Below, one piece after another: positions 5,134 to 52,529 of a DNA stretch of 64,000 nt (its first letter is position 1; each line of letters opens with the position of its first letter). The position numbers and the translations under genes were made by a program. The stretch covers positions 1 to 64,000 of the forward strand of contig JANSYO010000004.1 in NCBI GenBank assembly GCA_024742395.1, written 5' to 3'. A model generated the notes under the pieces. The model searched no databases and had not been told where the DNA came from. It saw only the letters and a program-made list of their open reading frames with translations. This DNA comes from Cytophagales bacterium. GTDB taxonomy: Bacteria > Bacteroidota > Bacteroidia > Cytophagales > Spirosomataceae.

Positions 5134-5283
5134 TAATAGGGTTTAATATATTTCTAAAGACTAAAGTAAAGCTAAAAAATAGTATTTTTCACCCTCAAAT
5201 GAAGGAATGGTCATTAAATAATCTCCCTCCGGACTATTTAATCAGACCTTATCCGTTTCAACCTTAACAAGAAATAATACAAA

Positions 5284-6270
5284 ATGAAAAGAATTTATTT
5301 AGCCGTTTTCGCCCTGTTCCTTTTTCAACAGTGCTCCACTCCAAACAAGGAAAGTAATCAAAACGAGGACAAGCGAATTCGTGTGATTTTTGATACTGAC
5401 GCAAACAATGAATTGGATGATCAACATGCACTAGCCTATCTCTTAAGTAATACAGACATTTTCAATCTGGTGGGTATCACGGTCAATGCCACATATAATG
5501 GCGGAGAAATTCAAGGGCATTATGATGAAGCAGAAAGGATTCTCCAGTTGTACAATATGAATGGGAAAATACCCCTTCTTAAAGGTGCCAATGCAGATTT
5601 TGAGGAAATTTCAACGATTGACTCACTAAAAAGTGATGGCTCTGAGGCAGTTGATTTCTTGATTGAAAAGGCCAATGAAGGACCATTGACTGTTATTGCT
5701 GTTGGCAAATTAAGTACTGTGGCTCTGGCTGTTAAAAAAGATTCAAGTTTTGCTCAAAAGGTAAACCTGGTTTGGCTAGGCTCTAACTATCCTGAACCCG
5801 GTGAATACAATCAAGACAACGATACTACCTCAATGAATTACCTTTTAAACTCATCTATTCCGTTTGAAATGGTGACAGTTCGCTACGGTAAACCTTCAGG
5901 AACAGATGCCGTGAAGGCTTTACAATCTGAAATACATCAAAAAATGCCGGGTCTGGGGCCCACTGCGGCAAAGCCTGTTACGGGCAGACATGGAAACACA
6001 TTTACCAATTTTGGCGACTATTCTATTGATCTTTTTGATCATATAGACCTCCACGGTAACCCTCCGTCCCGTCCGCTTTTTGACATGGTGGCTGTAGCCA
6101 TTTTAAAAGATCCTTCCTGGGGAGAAAAAAAGGAGATTCCTGCTCCGGTTTTAATTGACAATAAATGGGTAGAAAGACCTGAGAATGGCCGTAAAATCAT
6201 CGTTTGGGAAAACTTTGACAAAGAAGGGCTTCTCAATGATTTCTATGATCGAATGAAAAATTACAAATAA
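5284..6270 (+). CDS. Lipoprotein of the inosine-uridine nucleoside hydrolase family
   Basis: A 328-residue protein with a lipoprotein signal (MKRIYLAVFALFLFQQC, lipidated cysteine 17). The calcium-binding fingerprint of nucleoside hydrolases, DTDANNELDD, lies at residues 37-46. A later segment (LFDMVAVAILKDP) resembles the C-terminal metal site. Nucleoside hydrolases cleave the N-glycosidic bond of nucleosides; exported Bacteroidota members may act on nucleosides or on other N- or O-glycosides, so the substrate is uncertain. It is divergent from the sulfatase gene and convergent with the Gfo/Idh gene, from which a bidirectional terminator separates it. It appears to be monocistronic. Confidence 0.85.
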   Translation: MKRIYLAVFALFLFQQCSTPNKESNQNEDKRIRVIFDTDANNELDDQHALAYLLSNTDIFNLVGITVNATYNGGEIQGHYDEAERILQLYNMNGKIPLLKGANADFEEISTIDSLKSDGSEAVDFLIEKANEGPLTVIAVGKLSTVALAVKKDSSFAQKVNLVWLGSNYPEPGEYNQDNDTTSMNYLLNSSIPFEMVTVRYGKPSGTDAVKALQSEIHQKMPGLGPTAAKPVTGRHGNTFTNFGDYSIDLFDHIDLHGNPPSRPLFDMVAVAILKDPSWGEKKEIPAPVLIDNKWVERPENGRKIIVWENFDKEGLLNDFYDRMKNYK

Positions 6271-6280
6271 GATTACAAAA

Positions 6281-6307
6281 AAAAGGCCCGCCAATCGCGG
6301 GCCTTTT
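6281..6307. terminator. Bidirectional intrinsic terminator
   Basis: GGCCCGC and GCGGGCC pair around a five-base loop, extended by four A and four T to an 11-base-pair stem. The A tract on one side and the T tract on the other let it work on both strands, between two convergent genes. Confidence 0.9.
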
Positions 6308-6324
6308 ACAATTAAACAAAATTG

Positions 6325-7785
6325 TTACACCTCCCACCCTTTACGGTAAGTTCGAGTCACAAACTGATTAGCTTCTTCCAGGTTGGTGATTCGCATGTTT
6401 TCACCATCCCATAGTAGTTTCTTTCTTGCAAAGAAGTCTAGTTTGCCTTTCTCGTTTTCTTTGCGAAGCATATAACTTCTTATCGCCAAATTACCCATCA
6501 AGACCGTCTCAGTCATCGGGCCGGCATAATCAAAAGAGGAGGTCAAAGCCTTATGCTCTTTAGAGTTAAATCCGGCTTTGCAGGCATCTACCCATTTTCT
6601 TTGGTGGCCATTCTCTGGCTCGGTTTCGTCACGACCGGTAGGTCCAAATTCCGTAGTACCATCATTCATGTATAATTTAGGCGTCAAAGGTGAACTATCA
6701 TTGATGTTTGTTGAGATAATACCTTTTTCACCAATAATGAGCACGCCATTATAACTGCCCGGGCCACCTATATCGTCATTGGCAGGAATAATATCCGGGT
6801 GACTAGGGCGTATGCCACCATCGCTCCAGGCCATTTCTATGGGTGATTTGCTTTTAGCTGTAGCCCCAAAATGCAAGGTTATAAAAGAAGAAGGCGGACA
6901 GCCCTCAGGGTGGTAATCTGCATTCCACATTTTAGAGTAGACAGAAGCCACACTACATTCGGCATCAGTAGGATAATGCAAACCCAACGTTCTGAATGGA
7001 ATATCTATCAAATGGCAGCCTACGTCACCAAGAGCACCTGTTCCGTAATCCCACCATCCTCGCCAGTTAAACGGATGTAAGTTTGGTGTGTAAGGCTTGT
7101 ATTCTGCCGGCCCCAACCATAAATCCCAATTCATGTCCTTAGGTTTTAAGCTGGCATCCGGCTTTGGCATTTCACCACCTTGAGGCCATACTGGCCTATT
7201 CGTCCATATTTGCACTTTACTGATTTTACCTAATTTGCCAGAATCCACCCATCCTTTCACTAGGTCCAGATACGGGTTAGAGCCCCCTTGGTTTCCCATT
7301 TGTGTCACCACTTTTTGAGTGCGGGCCAGTTGCGTTAATACTCTGGCCTCTCTGATATTGTGGGTCATGGGCTTTTGCACATAAACATGCTTACCTCTGT
7401 CCATAGCAAATTTGGCTGCAGGCCCATGCACATGATCAGGTGTAGATATAGTTAAGGCATCAATGTCCTTTATTTCATCAAGCATCACGCGGTAATCTGC
7501 ATAAAGCTTGGCCTTAGGAAAATTCTTCACAGACTCAGCGGCTGAGCCTGAAAAGTCTACATCACAAAGAGCCACTACTCTCTCCCGACCTTTTACTGAT
7601 GCATTCATTATATCGCTTCTGCCTTTACCGCCCGCACCTATGGCCGCCAGATTTAACTGATCACTGGGCGATATAAAACCTTTTCCGCCGAGCACATTAC
7701 GAGGCACAATAAAAAAGGAAGAGGCAATAGCCGAATTCTTGATAAATTCACGCCTGGAGGAGGCTGAAAACTTCTTTTTAGTCAT
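6325..7785 (-). CDS. Exported Gfo/Idh/MocA family oxidoreductase
   Basis: A 486-residue NAD(P)-dependent sugar oxidoreductase. The N-terminus has a twin-arginine signal (SSRREFIKNSA, arginines 11-12), so the folded protein with bound cofactor is probably exported. The Rossmann motif GAGGKG is at residues 50-55 after a hydrophobic strand (LNLAAI), and the family lysine-proline pair appears as YVQKPMTHN (Lys138-Pro139). The later part (WDYGTGALGDVGCHLIDIPF) is the conserved substrate-side region of this family. Members oxidise or reduce a sugar ring hydroxyl, often at C3. That fits the DUF1080 and TIM-barrel genes further right, though they are not in one operon. The substrate is not determined. 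Confidence 0.9.
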   Translation of the reverse strand: MTKKKFSASSRREFIKNSAIASSFFIVPRNVLGGKGFISPSDQLNLAAIGAGGKGRSDIMNASVKGRERVVALCDVDFSGSAAESVKNFPKAKLYADYRVMLDEIKDIDALTISTPDHVHGPAAKFAMDRGKHVYVQKPMTHNIREARVLTQLARTQKVVTQMGNQGGSNPYLDLVKGWVDSGKLGKISKVQIWTNRPVWPQGGEMPKPDASLKPKDMNWDLWLGPAEYKPYTPNLHPFNWRGWWDYGTGALGDVGCHLIDIPFRTLGLHYPTDAECSVASVYSKMWNADYHPEGCPPSSFITLHFGATAKSKSPIEMAWSDGGIRPSHPDIIPANDDIGGPGSYNGVLIIGEKGIISTNINDSSPLTPKLYMNDGTTEFGPTGRDETEPENGHQRKWVDACKAGFNSKEHKALTSSFDYAGPMTETVLMGNLAIRSYMLRKENEKGKLDFFARKKLLWDGENMRITNLEEANQFVTRTYRKGWEV

Positions 7786-8226
7786 CTTAAATATTTATTG
7801 ACAGGGTTGAAAGGAAAAGATTGAACAATGAATTTAAGGTAAAAATACGCTTCTACTAAACAGAAGCAGACTTATTTCGTATTAAGAAACATTGAAATCT
7901 TCTTTTGGGGGCTCCATTGAAGGTTTTGACATATATTTTTGACTAAGATTAGGTTTAAGCACCGCAAAGCCTTTTTGACTTGCTGTAATGTAGGTCAACC
8001 TTCAGATTGAAAAAAAGTATGTCTTGTAATTGAAAGGTATGTATTAAATGAAAATTAAGAGAATAATAATCAGAGAAGGATTTATAAGAATCTGCTTTGA
8101 TCTACAAAGGCTAAGCTGTTGGAGTTGTTTTGCTAAGTCAATAAACTTGCGTTTAAATAAAAATGACTTATTTCAAACAAACTTTGTACGGTGTAAGTAG
8201 CAACACATACCTTAGAATGTGGCGGT
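7786..8226. other. AT-rich gap, no supported gene
   Basis: About 440 bases with no convincing gene. A 50-codon open frame (8048-8200, plus strand) has no leader or recognisable motif and is not called. The gap opens an AT-rich stretch that continues to about 9658 and differs in character from the flanking genes. It may hold the promoter of the Gfo/Idh gene; AACCCT lies at 7803-7808 on the minus strand. Confidence 0.5.
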
Positions 8227-8571
8227 TTAAGTATAAAACAATATGTAAATTATACTTAGGATATTAAAAGAATAAATAGCCAAACCAATTGCTCGAAAAA
8301 AGGCTTTCGGTTTATACGTATCTCTTAGCATTTCTATTGTCATTTTATCGAAAAAGGAATGTTTCCACCACGAAAATAAAAGAGTGATGGAAGTCATACT
8401 TATAATCAGATTTTTTAATTCACTCCAATCCAATATAATACTTAAGCATAGTGTCAGAAACATTAAAAGATTAATTATAGCATAGAAAAAGTATGATGCC
8501 CGAGTAAAATAAGGTAGCCTAGTTACCCAATACATTGTTCCCAAAATTGTTTCATTAAGAATTTTAAACAT
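8227..8571 (-). CDS. Small membrane protein of unknown function
   Basis: A 114-residue protein I do not recognise. It has about three hydrophobic helices: around residues 26-47, 53-67 and 91-112. A short polar segment (FFDKMTIEMLRDTYKPK) lies between the second and third. There is no signal peptide cleavage site or catalytic motif. It sits in an AT-rich stretch, about 300 bases from and divergent to another small membrane protein (8869-9411). The two might belong together, but their sequences show no clear similarity. An immunity or stress role would be a guess. The gene is supported by length and by the consistent membrane-protein pattern. Confidence 0.55.
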   Translation of the reverse strand: MFKILNETILGTMYWVTRLPYFTRASYFFYAIINLLMFLTLCLSIILDWSELKNLIISMTSITLLFSWWKHSFFDKMTIEMLRDTYKPKAFFRAIGLAIYSFNILSIIYILFYT

Positions 8572-47824: not shown

Positions 47825-48814
47825 ATGACTGACAAAGAATTACGGACTCTAGAACCCTTATTAATTGAAGATCCTCAACGATTCGTGATCTTTCCAATTA
47901 AACACCATGACATTTGGCAATTCTACAAAAACTCTGAAGCTTGTTTCTGGACAGCGGAAGAATTAGACCTTTCTCAGGATTTGAATGACTGGGAAAAGTT
48001 AAATGATGGCGAAAGACATTTCATCTCTCATGTTCTTGCCTTCTTCGCTGCTTCTGACGGAATTGTAAATGAAAACTTGGCAGTTGATTTCATCTCAGGA
48101 GTACAGTACGCTGAAGCCAAATGCTTTTACGGCTTTCAGATTACCATTGAAAATATACATGCCGAAGTATACTCCTTACTTATCGACACCTATATAAAAG
48201 ATACCAAAGAAAGAGATAAACTACTTAATGCGGTAGAGCTTATTCCATGTGTTCAGAAAAAGGCCGACTGGGCCATGAAATGGATAGAAAACGGCAATTT
48301 TATTGAGCGATTAATTGCTTTTGCCGCCGTAGAAGGGATATTCTTCTCTGGTTCGTTTTGCTCCATATTCTGGCTGAAGAAAAGAGGTTTAATGCCTGGA
48401 CTATCTTTCTCCAATGAATTAATTTCAAGAGATGAAGGCATGCACAGGGATTTTGCCTGCCTGCTTTACACAGACCATATCAAAAATAAATTACCTGCAG
48501 AGCAGGTGTACACCATTATAAAGGATGCCGTTGAAATTGAAAAAGAATTTGTCAGCGATGCACTTCCCGTTTCACTGATTGGTATGAACGCCGATTTGAT
48601 GTGTCAGTACATTGAATTTGTCGCTGATCACCTGTTGGAACAATTAAACCTTGAGAAAGTATACAACTCAAGCAATCCGTTTGATTTTATGGAGTTAATA
48701 TCTTTAGAAGGTAAAACTAATTTCTTTGAAAAGCGTGTAGGTGACTATCAGAAAGCAGGAGTTAGTTCTGCAGATGCTGATTCACATAGTTTTTCATTAG
48801 ACGAAGATTTCTAA
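47825..48814 (+). CDS. nrdB: Class I ribonucleotide reductase small subunit, eukaryote-like
   Basis: A 329-residue R2 protein that houses the di-iron site and tyrosyl radical used to make deoxynucleotides. The sequence is strikingly like the animal R2: [40 protein letters not shown] (radical Tyr102), [18 protein letters not shown] and [21 protein letters not shown]. All metal ligands appear present. The last residues SFSLDEDF are the tail that docks on the large subunit. It faces nrdA tail to tail instead of forming an operon with it, and has its own promoter with an inverted repeat. Confidence 0.96.
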
Positions 48815-48942: not shown

Positions 48943-51429
48943 TTAAGAGCCACACATTACACATCCTTCAGGATCGTCTAGCGAGCATTGCATTGCTGCA
49001 AACTTCTTTTCTTCCTCAGTCATTTCATCACTAAAGCTATCTGCTGCAGCCTTCTTTTGCAGTTCTTCGTTCTCCTTAGCAAAACCCTTATAGTCTAAAG
49101 GCTTCTCTTCTATCTTTTCAGTGCCTTTATTCGTCTCTTCCATGGTCTGCTTATCTACAGTAAACTTCACAGCTCCTACCGCCGCTTTTGTTCTTAGATA
49201 ATACATTCCGGTCTTAAGACCTGCCTTCCATGCATAAAAGTGCATAGAGGTAAGCTTACCAAAATTAGGATTCTCCATGAAAATATTCATTGACTGGCTT
49301 TGGCAAATATAAGCCCCTCTGTCAGCCGCCATGTCAATAATTACTTTTTGCTTAATCTCCCATGAAGTTTTATAAAGATCTTTCAATTCTTGTGGTATTT
49401 CGTCAATATTCTGAATTGAGCCGTTGGCTGCAATCAGCTTATTCTTCATCGTACCATTCCACATATTGATTTTAACAAGATCACGTAACAAGTGCTTGTT
49501 TACTATGGCAAACTCCCCCGACAATACCCTTCTTGAATAAATGTTTGAAGTATAAGGCTCAAAACACTCATTATTACCAAGAATCTGACTGGTAGAGGCA
49601 GTAGGCATTGGAGCTAAAAGTAAAGAGTTTCTAACGCCATGTTCTTTTACCTTTTCTCTCATGGCTTCCCAATCCCATCTTCCAGAATCTGGTGTTACGC
49701 CCCACATATCAAACTGGAATATCCCTTCAGAAATAGGAGAACCTTTCCATGTTTCGTAAGGACCTTCCTCAATGGCAAGCTCCATAGATGTTTCTACGGC
49801 AGCATAATACATTGTTTCAAAGATCTCTTTATTTAACTGACGGGCTTCATCAGAATCAAATGGCATTCTTAGCTGAATAAAAGTATCAGCCATTCCCTGT
49901 ATACCAATACCAATAGGTCGGTGGCGTTTGTTGCTGTATTCGGCTTCCTTCACTGGATAATAGTTTACATCTATTATTCTGTTTAGGTTTCTGGTTACCA
50001 CTTTAGTGATTTGATACAGCTTTTCATGATCAAACCTGATAGAATTTCCATCATTATCTTCCTCTACAAACTTAGGTAGAGCAATTGAAGCAAGATTACA
50101 AACCGCTACCTCATCAGGAGAGGTATACTCCATTATCTCTGTACATAGGTTTGAAGACTTAATTGTACCCAAGTTCTTCTGATTTGACTTTTTATTGGCC
50201 GCATCTTTATAAAGAATATAAGGTGTACCAGTTTCTATTTGAGATTCTAGAATCTTAAACCAAAGTTGCTGTGCCTTAATTTTTCTTTTCGCCTTACCTT
50301 CTGACTCATACTTTTCATATAATTTCTCAAAAGCATCTCCGTAAGCATCTGCCAAACCAGGACATTCATGTGGACAGAAAAGAGACCATTCCGCGTCTGC
50401 TTCTACTCTTTTCATAAACAAATCAGAAATCCACATGGCGTAGAAAAGATCTCTGGCTCTCATTTCCTCTTTACCATGGTTTTTCTTTAGATCAAGAAAA
50501 TCCTCAATATCAGCATGCCATGGCTCAAGATAGATAGCAAATGACCCCTTTCTTTTTCCTCCCCCCTGGTCTACGTATCTGGCTGTGTCATTATATACTC
50601 GCAGCATCGGTATGATGCCGTTTGACGTTCCGTTTCTACCCTTAATGTATGACCCTTTAGCTCTTATATCATGAATAGAAAGCCCGATTCCTCCTGCTGA
50701 CTGAGAAATCTTAGCACATTGCTTTAAAGTATCGTAAATACCATCAATGCTATCATCTTTCATTGTTAGTAAGAAACAAGAAGATAACTGAGGTTTTGGA
50801 GTACCGGCGTTAAACAATGTAGGAGTAGCATGAGTAAACCATTTCTCAGATAATAGGCCGTATGTTTCTATTACCTTTTCAATGTTCTCACCATGAATAC
50901 CAACAGAAACACGCATAAGCATATGCTGCGGACGCTCCACTATCTTACCATTCATTTTCAGAAGGTATGATCTTTCCAGTGTTTTGTACCCAAAATAATC
51001 GTAGCTGTAATCTCTATCATAGATGATTGTTGAGTCTAAAAGTGCAGCATTCTGCTGAATCACTTTCCAGGTTTCTTTCGAAATCAGCGAAGCATTCTCA
51101 TTGGTTTTGGGATCAACATACTGATAGAGCATCTTCATTGTACCTGAAAAAGACTTCAAGGTATTTTTATGAAGATTGCTTATAGCAATTCTTGCTGCAA
51201 GCTGGGCGTAATCAGGATGCTTTGTAGTCATCGATGCCGCAGTCTCGGCAGCCAGACTATCTAGCTGCGACGTAGACACTCCGTCATAAATTCCCGAGAC
51301 GACTTTCATAGCCACTTCCACGGGTTGTACAAAATTGGGGTCTAGCCCATAACAAAGCCTCTCAATTCTCGAGGTAATTTTGTCGAATTTGACGGATTCT
51401 CTACGACCATCACGCTTGATTACATACAT
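48943..51429 (-). CDS. nrdA: Class I ribonucleotide reductase large subunit, eukaryote-like
   Basis: An 828-residue R1 protein. The N-terminal ATP cone ([18 protein letters not shown], residues 1-90) gives allosteric activity control. Catalytic cysteines fall at Cys218 (LSSCFL), Cys429 (SNLCTEI) and Cys444 (VAVCNLAS), the same numbers as in the mammalian enzyme. The tail ends EGCVMCGS, the redox-shuttle cysteine pair. The radical-transfer tyrosines are expected in the segment [18 protein letters not shown]. It is fully equipped. Its upstream region contains a candidate promoter and, further away, a cluster of DnaA boxes. Confidence 0.96.
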
Positions 51430-51517
51430 ACAGCAGTTGCGTTAAAAGGGTTATAAATAAAGTATTTCTTTTTGCTCAAGTGAACAAAACCAGGGTCATA
51501 ATTTTGTTCGCGGACTA

Positions 51518-51544
51518 CAAATCTACCACAGATTTTAGCTTCAA
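51518..51544 (-). promoter_or_regulatory. Candidate nrdA promoter
   Basis: On the minus strand: TTG (51542-51544), a 16-base spacer and TAGATTTG (51518-51525). The -7 element is perfect; the spacer is one base shorter than usual. The leader would be about 80 bases. Confidence 0.55.
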
Positions 51545-51667
51545 AAAAACCGAAATTTTGTTTGCTTTTTTGGCATTGTGCATTTCTTACAAACCATCTA
51601 TCTATATACGACCTTATGCTCAACGATTTACAAGTTTACATCCATTAGAATAATACCAAATTGAAAG

Positions 51668-51676
51668 TTTTCCACA
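51668..51676 (+). promoter_or_regulatory. DnaA-box-like site
   Basis: TTTTCCACA differs from the consensus TTATNCACA at one position. TTTTCCACT at 51691-51699 is a weaker neighbour on the same strand. Confidence 0.5.
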
Positions 51677-51698
51677 TTCCTATTCAGGCCTTTTCCAC

Positions 51699-51707
51699 TT
51701 ATCCACA
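51699..51707 (+). promoter_or_regulatory. Perfect DnaA box
   Basis: TTATCCACA matches the strongest form of the consensus. With the next seven bases (AAAACAT and T) it is the left arm of a 16-base inverted repeat. Confidence 0.75.
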
Positions 51708-51788
51708 AAACATTCGAAAATGTGGCCGGAAAGCATATATACCACGTTTTCTGATGTTTAGCTCTTAAACTTAAACTATTAATTTAAA

Positions 51789-51810
51789 ATTTTCAATAAT
51801 AATTGAAAAT
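51789..51810. repeat. AT-rich hairpin inside the DnaA-box repeat
   Basis: ATTTTCAAT and ATTGAAAAT are exact complements around AATA. The surrounding 35 bases are almost pure A and T, as expected for a DNA unwinding element. Confidence 0.7.
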
Positions 51811-51834
51811 AATTCGACACTTGTCTAAATGTTT

Positions 51835-51843
51835 TGTGGATAA
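51835..51843 (-). promoter_or_regulatory. Perfect DnaA box, opposite orientation
   Basis: TGTGGATAA is the reverse complement of TTATCCACA. It lies only nine bases from the stop codon of the thiamine pyrophosphokinase gene. Confidence 0.75.
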
Positions 51844-51851
51844 CTTTGACA

Positions 51852-52529
51852 TTAGTCAATACATTCCATTAACAAAAGTTCGCCCACCTCAAAAGAGACA
51901 TTTATGAGGCCATCTTGAGCTACTTCGTTGCTGTTTCCGAGGCGTGTTCCAAGCTCTAGCCAGCTATTAGTCAGAGGATACTTCAAATTAGCAGTGAGTA
52001 TACCTTCAACCCTACCCAATGGAAGCAAAGAAATAGCTGTACCCCGTTTATACCACTTTTCAAAATTTGATGGTTTTGGCTTTAGTGGATAAATCTTTGA
52101 GTAATCATCCATCATGACAAGTTGTACTTCATTTTTGTACTTCGCAAGATTTAAAACGTTAGCCAAGGTATGGTCCATTCGCCGCCCTGTAGCCCACAGA
52201 ATATTCACGGCGGGAAAGCCCCGATCTATCAAAAATTCAATTCCCTTTTCTAAGTCCGTTTTATTCTGATCAGGCGTATGCACAATTTCAATAGGGAACT
52301 GAGACTGTCGAATTTCTTCAAGATTTGACGTTGAGTTATGGTCAAAATCTCCTAGCAACACATCTACCTTAATGCCCAACTGAAGTACGCGGTCAATGGC
52401 TCCATCTAAAACCACCACAAATGGCGACCATTCTAAAAGCTCTTCAAGTAACTCAGAGCTACATGCAGCTCCATTGGCAATTAATAAGGCTGGCTCCTGC
52501 TTTTCTTTAACAATATGATGAGAAGACAT
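51852..52529 (-). CDS. thiN: Thiamine pyrophosphokinase
   Basis: A 225-residue enzyme that transfers pyrophosphate from ATP to thiamine, giving the active cofactor TPP. The substrate motifs are LLIANGAACS, VVLDGAIDRVL, LLGDFDH and TPDQNKTDLEKGI, with ILWATGRRMDHTLANV next. The C-terminal domain has SLLPLGRVEGILT and YPL, as in the family. No thiamine biosynthesis genes adjoin it, so it may serve salvage. Its stop codon abuts the DnaA-box region. Confidence 0.92.
   Translation of the reverse strand: MSSHHIVKEKQEPALLIANGAACSSELLEELLEWSPFVVVLDGAIDRVLQLGIKVDVLLGDFDHNSTSNLEEIRQSQFPIEIVHTPDQNKTDLEKGIEFLIDRGFPAVNILWATGRRMDHTLANVLNLAKYKNEVQLVMMDDYSKIYPLKPKPSNFEKWYKRGTAISLLPLGRVEGILTANLKYPLTNSWLELGTRLGNSNEVAQDGLINVSFEVGELLLMECID

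Follow-up and report, generated by a model that had tools for sequence, protein, structure and literature searches.

The window analysed here is a 64,000-nucleotide (nt) stretch of DNA from a Cytophagales bacterium. It carries a 422-bp intergenic gap (51430–51851) between two minus-strand genes, nrdA, which encodes the class I ribonucleotide reductase large subunit with an ATP cone (48943–51429), and a thiamine pyrophosphokinase gene as its upstream neighbour (51852–52529), so that the gap constitutes the nrdA upstream region. The nrdB gene (47825–48814, plus strand) is convergent with nrdA, and no DnaA box with at most one mismatch occurs in the 4 kb upstream of it. As a sequence-only reading of this DNA had noticed, the nrdA gap holds two perfect boxes, TTATCCACA, in opposed orientation: the distal box A, oriented towards nrdA (51835–51843, minus strand), and box B (51699–51707, plus strand). 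The near match that it listed at 51668 is also present and is designated box C (51668–51676, plus strand; TTTTCCACA in the window), and its weaker site at 51691, TTTTCCACT, has by eye two mismatches and a one-base overlap with the box at 51699. Counted in the nrdA sense from the ATG, boxes A, B and C lie at −414, −278 and −247, with spacings of 31, 136 and 167 bp.

The two perfect boxes belong to an exact 16-bp inverted repeat whose arms (51699–51714, plus strand; 51828–51843, minus strand) are 113 nt apart, as originally described. The DNA between the arms was called almost pure A/T, which overstates its composition: it is AT-rich only, with a measured GC content of 27% and a lowest 60-bp value of 13%. 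The AT-rich hairpin of the same description corresponds to a small dyad between the arms, recognized by eye, TTTTCAAT-N4-ATTGAAAA (51790–51809; half-sites 51790–51797 and 51802–51809). On the nrdA side of box C, a partly conserved block (51600–51667, minus strand, by eye) begins with CTTT and continues into GTAYTWTTCYAAT-like and TTGATNATNAGG-like stretches. The Bacteroidota −7 consensus is TAnnTTTG, and a −7 element is predicted at 51518–51525 on the minus strand (TAGATTTG), with a T-run 15–24 nt upstream of it. This places the predicted nrdA promoter at about 51518–51549 and the boxes approximately 143–318 bp upstream of the predicted −7 element. Sigma-70 and terminator scans gave no signal exceeding that in shuffled sequence, and no Rfam family scored above its threshold.

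Of 58 matching genomes, 48 supplied the DNA upstream of nrdA in which conservation of this arrangement was assessed (30 + 18 loci; the ten omitted were all at most 78% identical), together with 80 loci retained out of 594 matches. After removal of five regions that were too short, including one at 88% identity that came without upstream DNA (L262), and of one duplicate, 122 of the 128 were usable. We refer to the genomes with NrdA at least 87% identical as the clade (n = 15, the window's own genome included; named members include Emticicia and Lacihabitans) and to the remaining 107 as distant, a limit that was set after the data had been seen, though it coincides with the top of the identity ranking. 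A box pair, defined as a perfect box with a second one, perfect or carrying a single mismatch, within 200 bp of it, lies upstream of nrdA in 15/15 clade genomes and in 1/107 distant ones, the single exception being an Arcicella (L280); reversed sequence yielded 0/15 and 0/107. At least one perfect box is found in 4/107 distant genomes. Single boxes with at most one mismatch occur in 29/107 distant regions, and in reversed sequence in 12/107 distant and 7/15 clade regions; because they are this frequent, we give single weak boxes little weight. The comparison across relatives, which the sequence-only reading had proposed with absence of conservation as the outcome that would count against it, thus found the boxes conserved.

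Within the clade, the best-kept site is box C, present in all 15 genomes as TTATCCACA (10/15) or TTTTCCACA (5/15) and followed by CTTT and then by a less strictly conserved stretch. It is therefore the core site, though it had been recorded only as a near match. Six of the 15 genomes have a perfect box A, oriented as in the window and lying between −401 and −421 relative to the nrdA ATG, and the place of box B is occupied with at most one mismatch in five (L002, L003, L005, L006 and L007), the window's own genome being counted in both cases. Five of the 15 (L009, L010 and L259–L261) have instead two perfect boxes in the same direction, 125–128 bp apart. Where the boxes can be paired off, the spacings are 31–33 bp between B and C in 5/5, 134–136 bp between A and B in 4/5 (125 bp in one), and 166–169 bp between A and C in 5/6 (157 bp in one). 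The dyad core TTTCAA...TTGAAA is shared by three of the 15 and the TAnnTTTG motif, at −71 to −103 from the ATG, by nine, again including the window's own genome. Among the 15, a double box with 3-bp spacing (at most one mismatch) exists only in G001.

A GTAYTWTTCCA-like sequence lies upstream of nrdA in the window (51646–51656, minus strand) and at seven other loci (L291, L293, L294, L295, L311, L324 and L327). With at most one mismatch it matches 24 of 107 upstream regions, nine of which are clade members that supplied the motif; 22 of the 24 matches are on the nrdA sense strand, and reversed sequence gave 0/107. The GTAYTWTTCYAAT-like motif is likewise found upstream of nrdA genes that have no DnaA boxes, in Aquirufa-like genomes. 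Given its occurrence without DnaA boxes, the GTAYTWTTCCA-like element is possibly an older nrdA control site.

Could the boxes be functionless chance matches? Taken as a whole, the window is not enriched in boxes that deviate by no more than one base (21 observed, 18.3 expected), as such an explanation would have it. Perfect pairs behave differently from this expectation: with 33 perfect boxes in the 5.54 Mb of the window's own genome, uniform scatter predicts 0.04 perfect pairs within 200 bp genome-wide, and set beside the distribution of box pairs, universal in the clade and nearly confined to it, this makes chance hardly credible. The nrdA-upstream pair is the sole perfect pair within 200 bp on any one contig of that genome, and the sole such pair in each of two relatives, G001 and G022, is likewise upstream of nrdA.

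The sequence-only reading preferred a different explanation, a chromosomal replication origin with an AT-rich unwinding element, and the two perfect opposed boxes around AT-rich DNA do fit that description. Since the window's own genome (G000) is in 440 contigs and its own skew is indecisive, we read the GC skew in the single-contig relatives G001 and G022, sampling twenty 20-kb stretches in each and then refining. The skew changes sign at about 2.71–2.72 Mb in G001, next to a box cluster at 2.7316–2.7323 Mb, and at about 4.14 Mb in G022, next to a cluster at 4.1598–4.1605 Mb; the sampled values to the left and right of the cluster are −0.064/+0.082 and −0.030/+0.080, respectively. The G022 skew is noisy, with positive samples at 1.50–2.04 Mb and negative ones at 5.01–5.28 Mb, and its refinement skipped some stretches. 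Both clusters share the gene order mnmG, a 532-amino-acid gene, box cluster, TPR-type gene (mnmG is cut at the locus end in G001; MnmG was named by TIGR00136 in G022). An origin beside mnmG (gidA) is a recognized bacterial type, and its DnaA boxes and AT-rich DNA are features that the nrdA site shares.

These switches lie 444 kb (G001) and 408 kb (G022) from nrdA, so that the skew minimum that the sequence-only reading looked for at the site falls elsewhere in both relatives, and in the window itself the skew is below zero in the 12 kb and 20 kb left of the site as well as in the 12 kb right of it. Skew located the mnmG-side cluster in G001 and G022, whereas in G000, G035 and G006 it was recognized only from a gene match or from boxes. 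In the window's own genome the orthologous locus is on contig C162 at about 138.3–138.7 kb; its boxes are degenerate and its AT-rich end is similar. This region (L145, C162:137000–142500) is the candidate for the real oriC and, unlike the nrdA site, has no perfect box. The cumulative skew of C162 reaches its minimum at 160 kb, about 22 kb past the candidate, and the right arm is only 28 kb long with a skew that is not positive (−0.021). A perfect pair elsewhere on that contig (115257/115599) was dropped as an origin candidate because it lies inside an open reading frame (ORF). A DnaA-box cluster beside AT-rich DNA, which the nrdA site does have, is insufficient by itself to identify an origin; there is no skew switch at the site, and as an origin locus conserved across relatives the mnmG-side cluster fits instead, the nrdA box pair being missing in 106/107 of the more distant ones. 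We therefore reject the nrdA-upstream sites as the chromosome's replication origin, which they are very unlikely to be.

The sequence-only reading had also offered, as its alternative, DnaA control of nrdA, and this gains support from the clade-wide conservation and from where the other intergenic perfect boxes lie. In the window's own genome, with ORFs called by a simple script, 28 of 33 perfect boxes are within predicted ORFs and five are intergenic: the two at nrdA, single ones upstream of dnaA and of parA, and one in the gap that separates a LacI-type regulator from an MFS transporter. G022 has 36 perfect boxes, of which the script classed 31 (26 in ORFs and five intergenic, one of these at dnaA and four elsewhere, one borderline); two at nrdA and one at parA were placed separately and two were left unclassed. 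Among the boxes classed, the intergenic places common to the two genomes are nrdA, parA and dnaA. The further intergenic perfect boxes, one in the window's own genome and four in G022, are at genes without an evident link to replication.

The parA-upstream boxes recur in all nine clade genomes tested and are absent from six of six outgroups. Seven of the nine have two boxes 19 bp apart, both with one mismatch in G023, and the remaining two have a single perfect box. The dnaA-upstream box is less constant, present in three of nine clade genomes (at −173 and −176 in G000 and G002, and by hand count at about −172 in G022) and absent in six. Because boxes occur at parA and sometimes at dnaA, the nrdA site would be part of a small DnaA regulon. 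The order parA, parB, dnaB is found in G000, G001 and G035 and, judged by coordinates, apparently also holds in G002, G022 and G016; in G023 dnaB is approximately 27 kb from parA. The dnaB of this cluster is a second copy in seven of the nine genomes (G028 and the 66%-complete G026 have one dnaB), and in the window's own genome both copies exceed the DnaB cut-off.

In the window's own genome the parA–parB–dnaB cluster occupies positions 5210–8393 of locus L193 (G000:C95:66000–80000), with a second, convergent ParA-like gene beyond dnaB and the ordinary dnaB on contig C82. A 14-mer extended around the parA box, with one mismatch allowed, matched 58 times, against 59 in the reversed control, and four of its five exact matches are the parA site. 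Upstream of parA at L162–L169 (G026, G028 and outgroups), GTGAAACA/GTGGAACA-like repeats can be seen by eye, which we take to resemble parS half-sites. Box pairs in outgroup G006, with spacings of 19 and 16 bp, lie beside genes that by eye seem unrelated, namely a transporter gene and biosynthetic genes.

Two further explanations accept the boxes as functional. In the first, the boxes form a locus of the datA or DARS kind, which would titrate DnaA or alter the nucleotide bound to it, and nrdA is a mere neighbour. E. coli datA lies several hundred kilobases from oriC, and nrdA here is 408–476 kb from the oriC-side TPR gene in four of four clade genomes with both on one contig (G001, G022, G035 and G002), compared with 0.82–2.49 Mb for parA and 1.08–1.46 Mb for dnaA (three genomes each). 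In the outgroups G006 and G027, nrdA is 1.31 Mb and 1.03 Mb from the oriC side. Perfect boxes are also enriched within 700 kb of oriC (uncorrected P: G001 0.019, G022 0.0006, G006 0.004), and E. coli has a box-rich region near oriC according to the accessible part of PMC12371093. Excerpts of PMC5835720 describe two consensus boxes at datA, as here, which are required and flank an IHF site; the boxes here differ in being attached to the nrdA promoter region. Within 250 kb of oriC, G001 shows no excess (4 against 5.0), symmetric inversions would also preserve the distance (nrdA in G022 is on the other side of the TPR gene), boxes also occur at parA, distant from oriC, and the nrdA site has only two to five boxes with at most one mismatch. 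We give such a locus an outside chance. A different regulator with a TTATCCACA-like site is quite improbable: conservation does extend beyond the 9-mer, to the CTTT beside box C and the GTAYTWTTCYAAT-like stretch, but those nine bases match the DnaA consensus exactly and recur upstream of dnaA and parA.

The region is thus probably a DnaA-binding regulatory region of nrdA rather than an origin, and a lineage-specific DnaA regulon in which nrdA is controlled from upstream boxes is the most likely setting. This reading draws on sequence, conservation, gene context and the origin's position elsewhere in relatives, from which we infer DnaA binding, regulation and looping. The domain make-up of DnaA in the window's own genome is the usual one, and the C-terminal DNA-binding domain is preserved, with GGRDHSTVIHA where chain 8btg_A has GGRDHTTVIHA, in a closely matching C-terminal segment. 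A search for NrdR (TIGR00244) was negative in all 59 genomes of the order, the window's own included, and positive in 9 of 14 controls; the regulator that usually governs ribonucleotide reductase transcription is thus not detected. NrdR and Bacteroidetes are treated in PMC3019208 and PMC5794259, as far as their accessible portions go. In the proposed mechanism, DnaA would bind box C, and boxes B and A where present. The spacings are near whole helical turns, so DnaA molecules could share one face of the DNA and co-operate or loop from approximately 143–318 bp upstream of the predicted nrdA −7 element; with few independent spacings, this phasing is suggestive only. The supply of ribonucleotide reductase would then depend on how much DnaA is present or on its nucleotide state, through either activation or repression of nrdA. 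Counting against nrdA control are the distance of the boxes from the predicted promoter, the lack of a box at nrdB, the restriction of box A to 6/15 and box B to 5/15 clade genomes, the absence of the dnaA box in 6/9, and the intergenic perfect boxes at genes without an evident replication link.

That DnaA controls nrdAB is established for E. coli, where it both activates and represses the operon (PMC8203912) and prefers double boxes with 2–3 bp spacing (PMC11317965), as the accessible parts of these papers (both for the control itself) describe. The shared features are boxes upstream of the class I large-subunit gene and dnaA among the targets. The 2–3 bp double-box arrangement is not what we found: the boxes here are opposed and tens to more than 100 bp apart, and nrdA and nrdB are convergent rather than an operon, in an order without detectable NrdR. 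Ribonucleotide reductase genes are proposed targets of the Caulobacter and Bacillus DnaA regulons as well (PMC8203912, in part), with the differences that the present lineage belongs to another phylum and that its set includes a parA–parB–dnaB cluster. No report of DnaA control of nrdA in Bacteroidota appeared among the titles and abstract openings of the matches listed, a set that mostly excludes subscription literature.

On a broader and more tentative view, which we hold as possible but somewhat doubtful, DnaA in the Emticicia/Lacihabitans lineage may have become a compact master regulator that links replication initiation with dNTP supply through nrdA, with chromosome partition through parAB and with dnaB2, a second replicative helicase particular to this lineage; phased boxes acting over long distances would be part of the means. 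How DnaA controls ribonucleotide reductase is understood in E. coli, and such control has been proposed for other bacteria; the promoter geometry seen here differs from that of E. coli in ways that can be tested. The conserved sites at nrdA, parAB–dnaB and sometimes dnaA would extend the coupling of dNTP supply and segregation to the replication initiator into a lineage without detectable NrdR.
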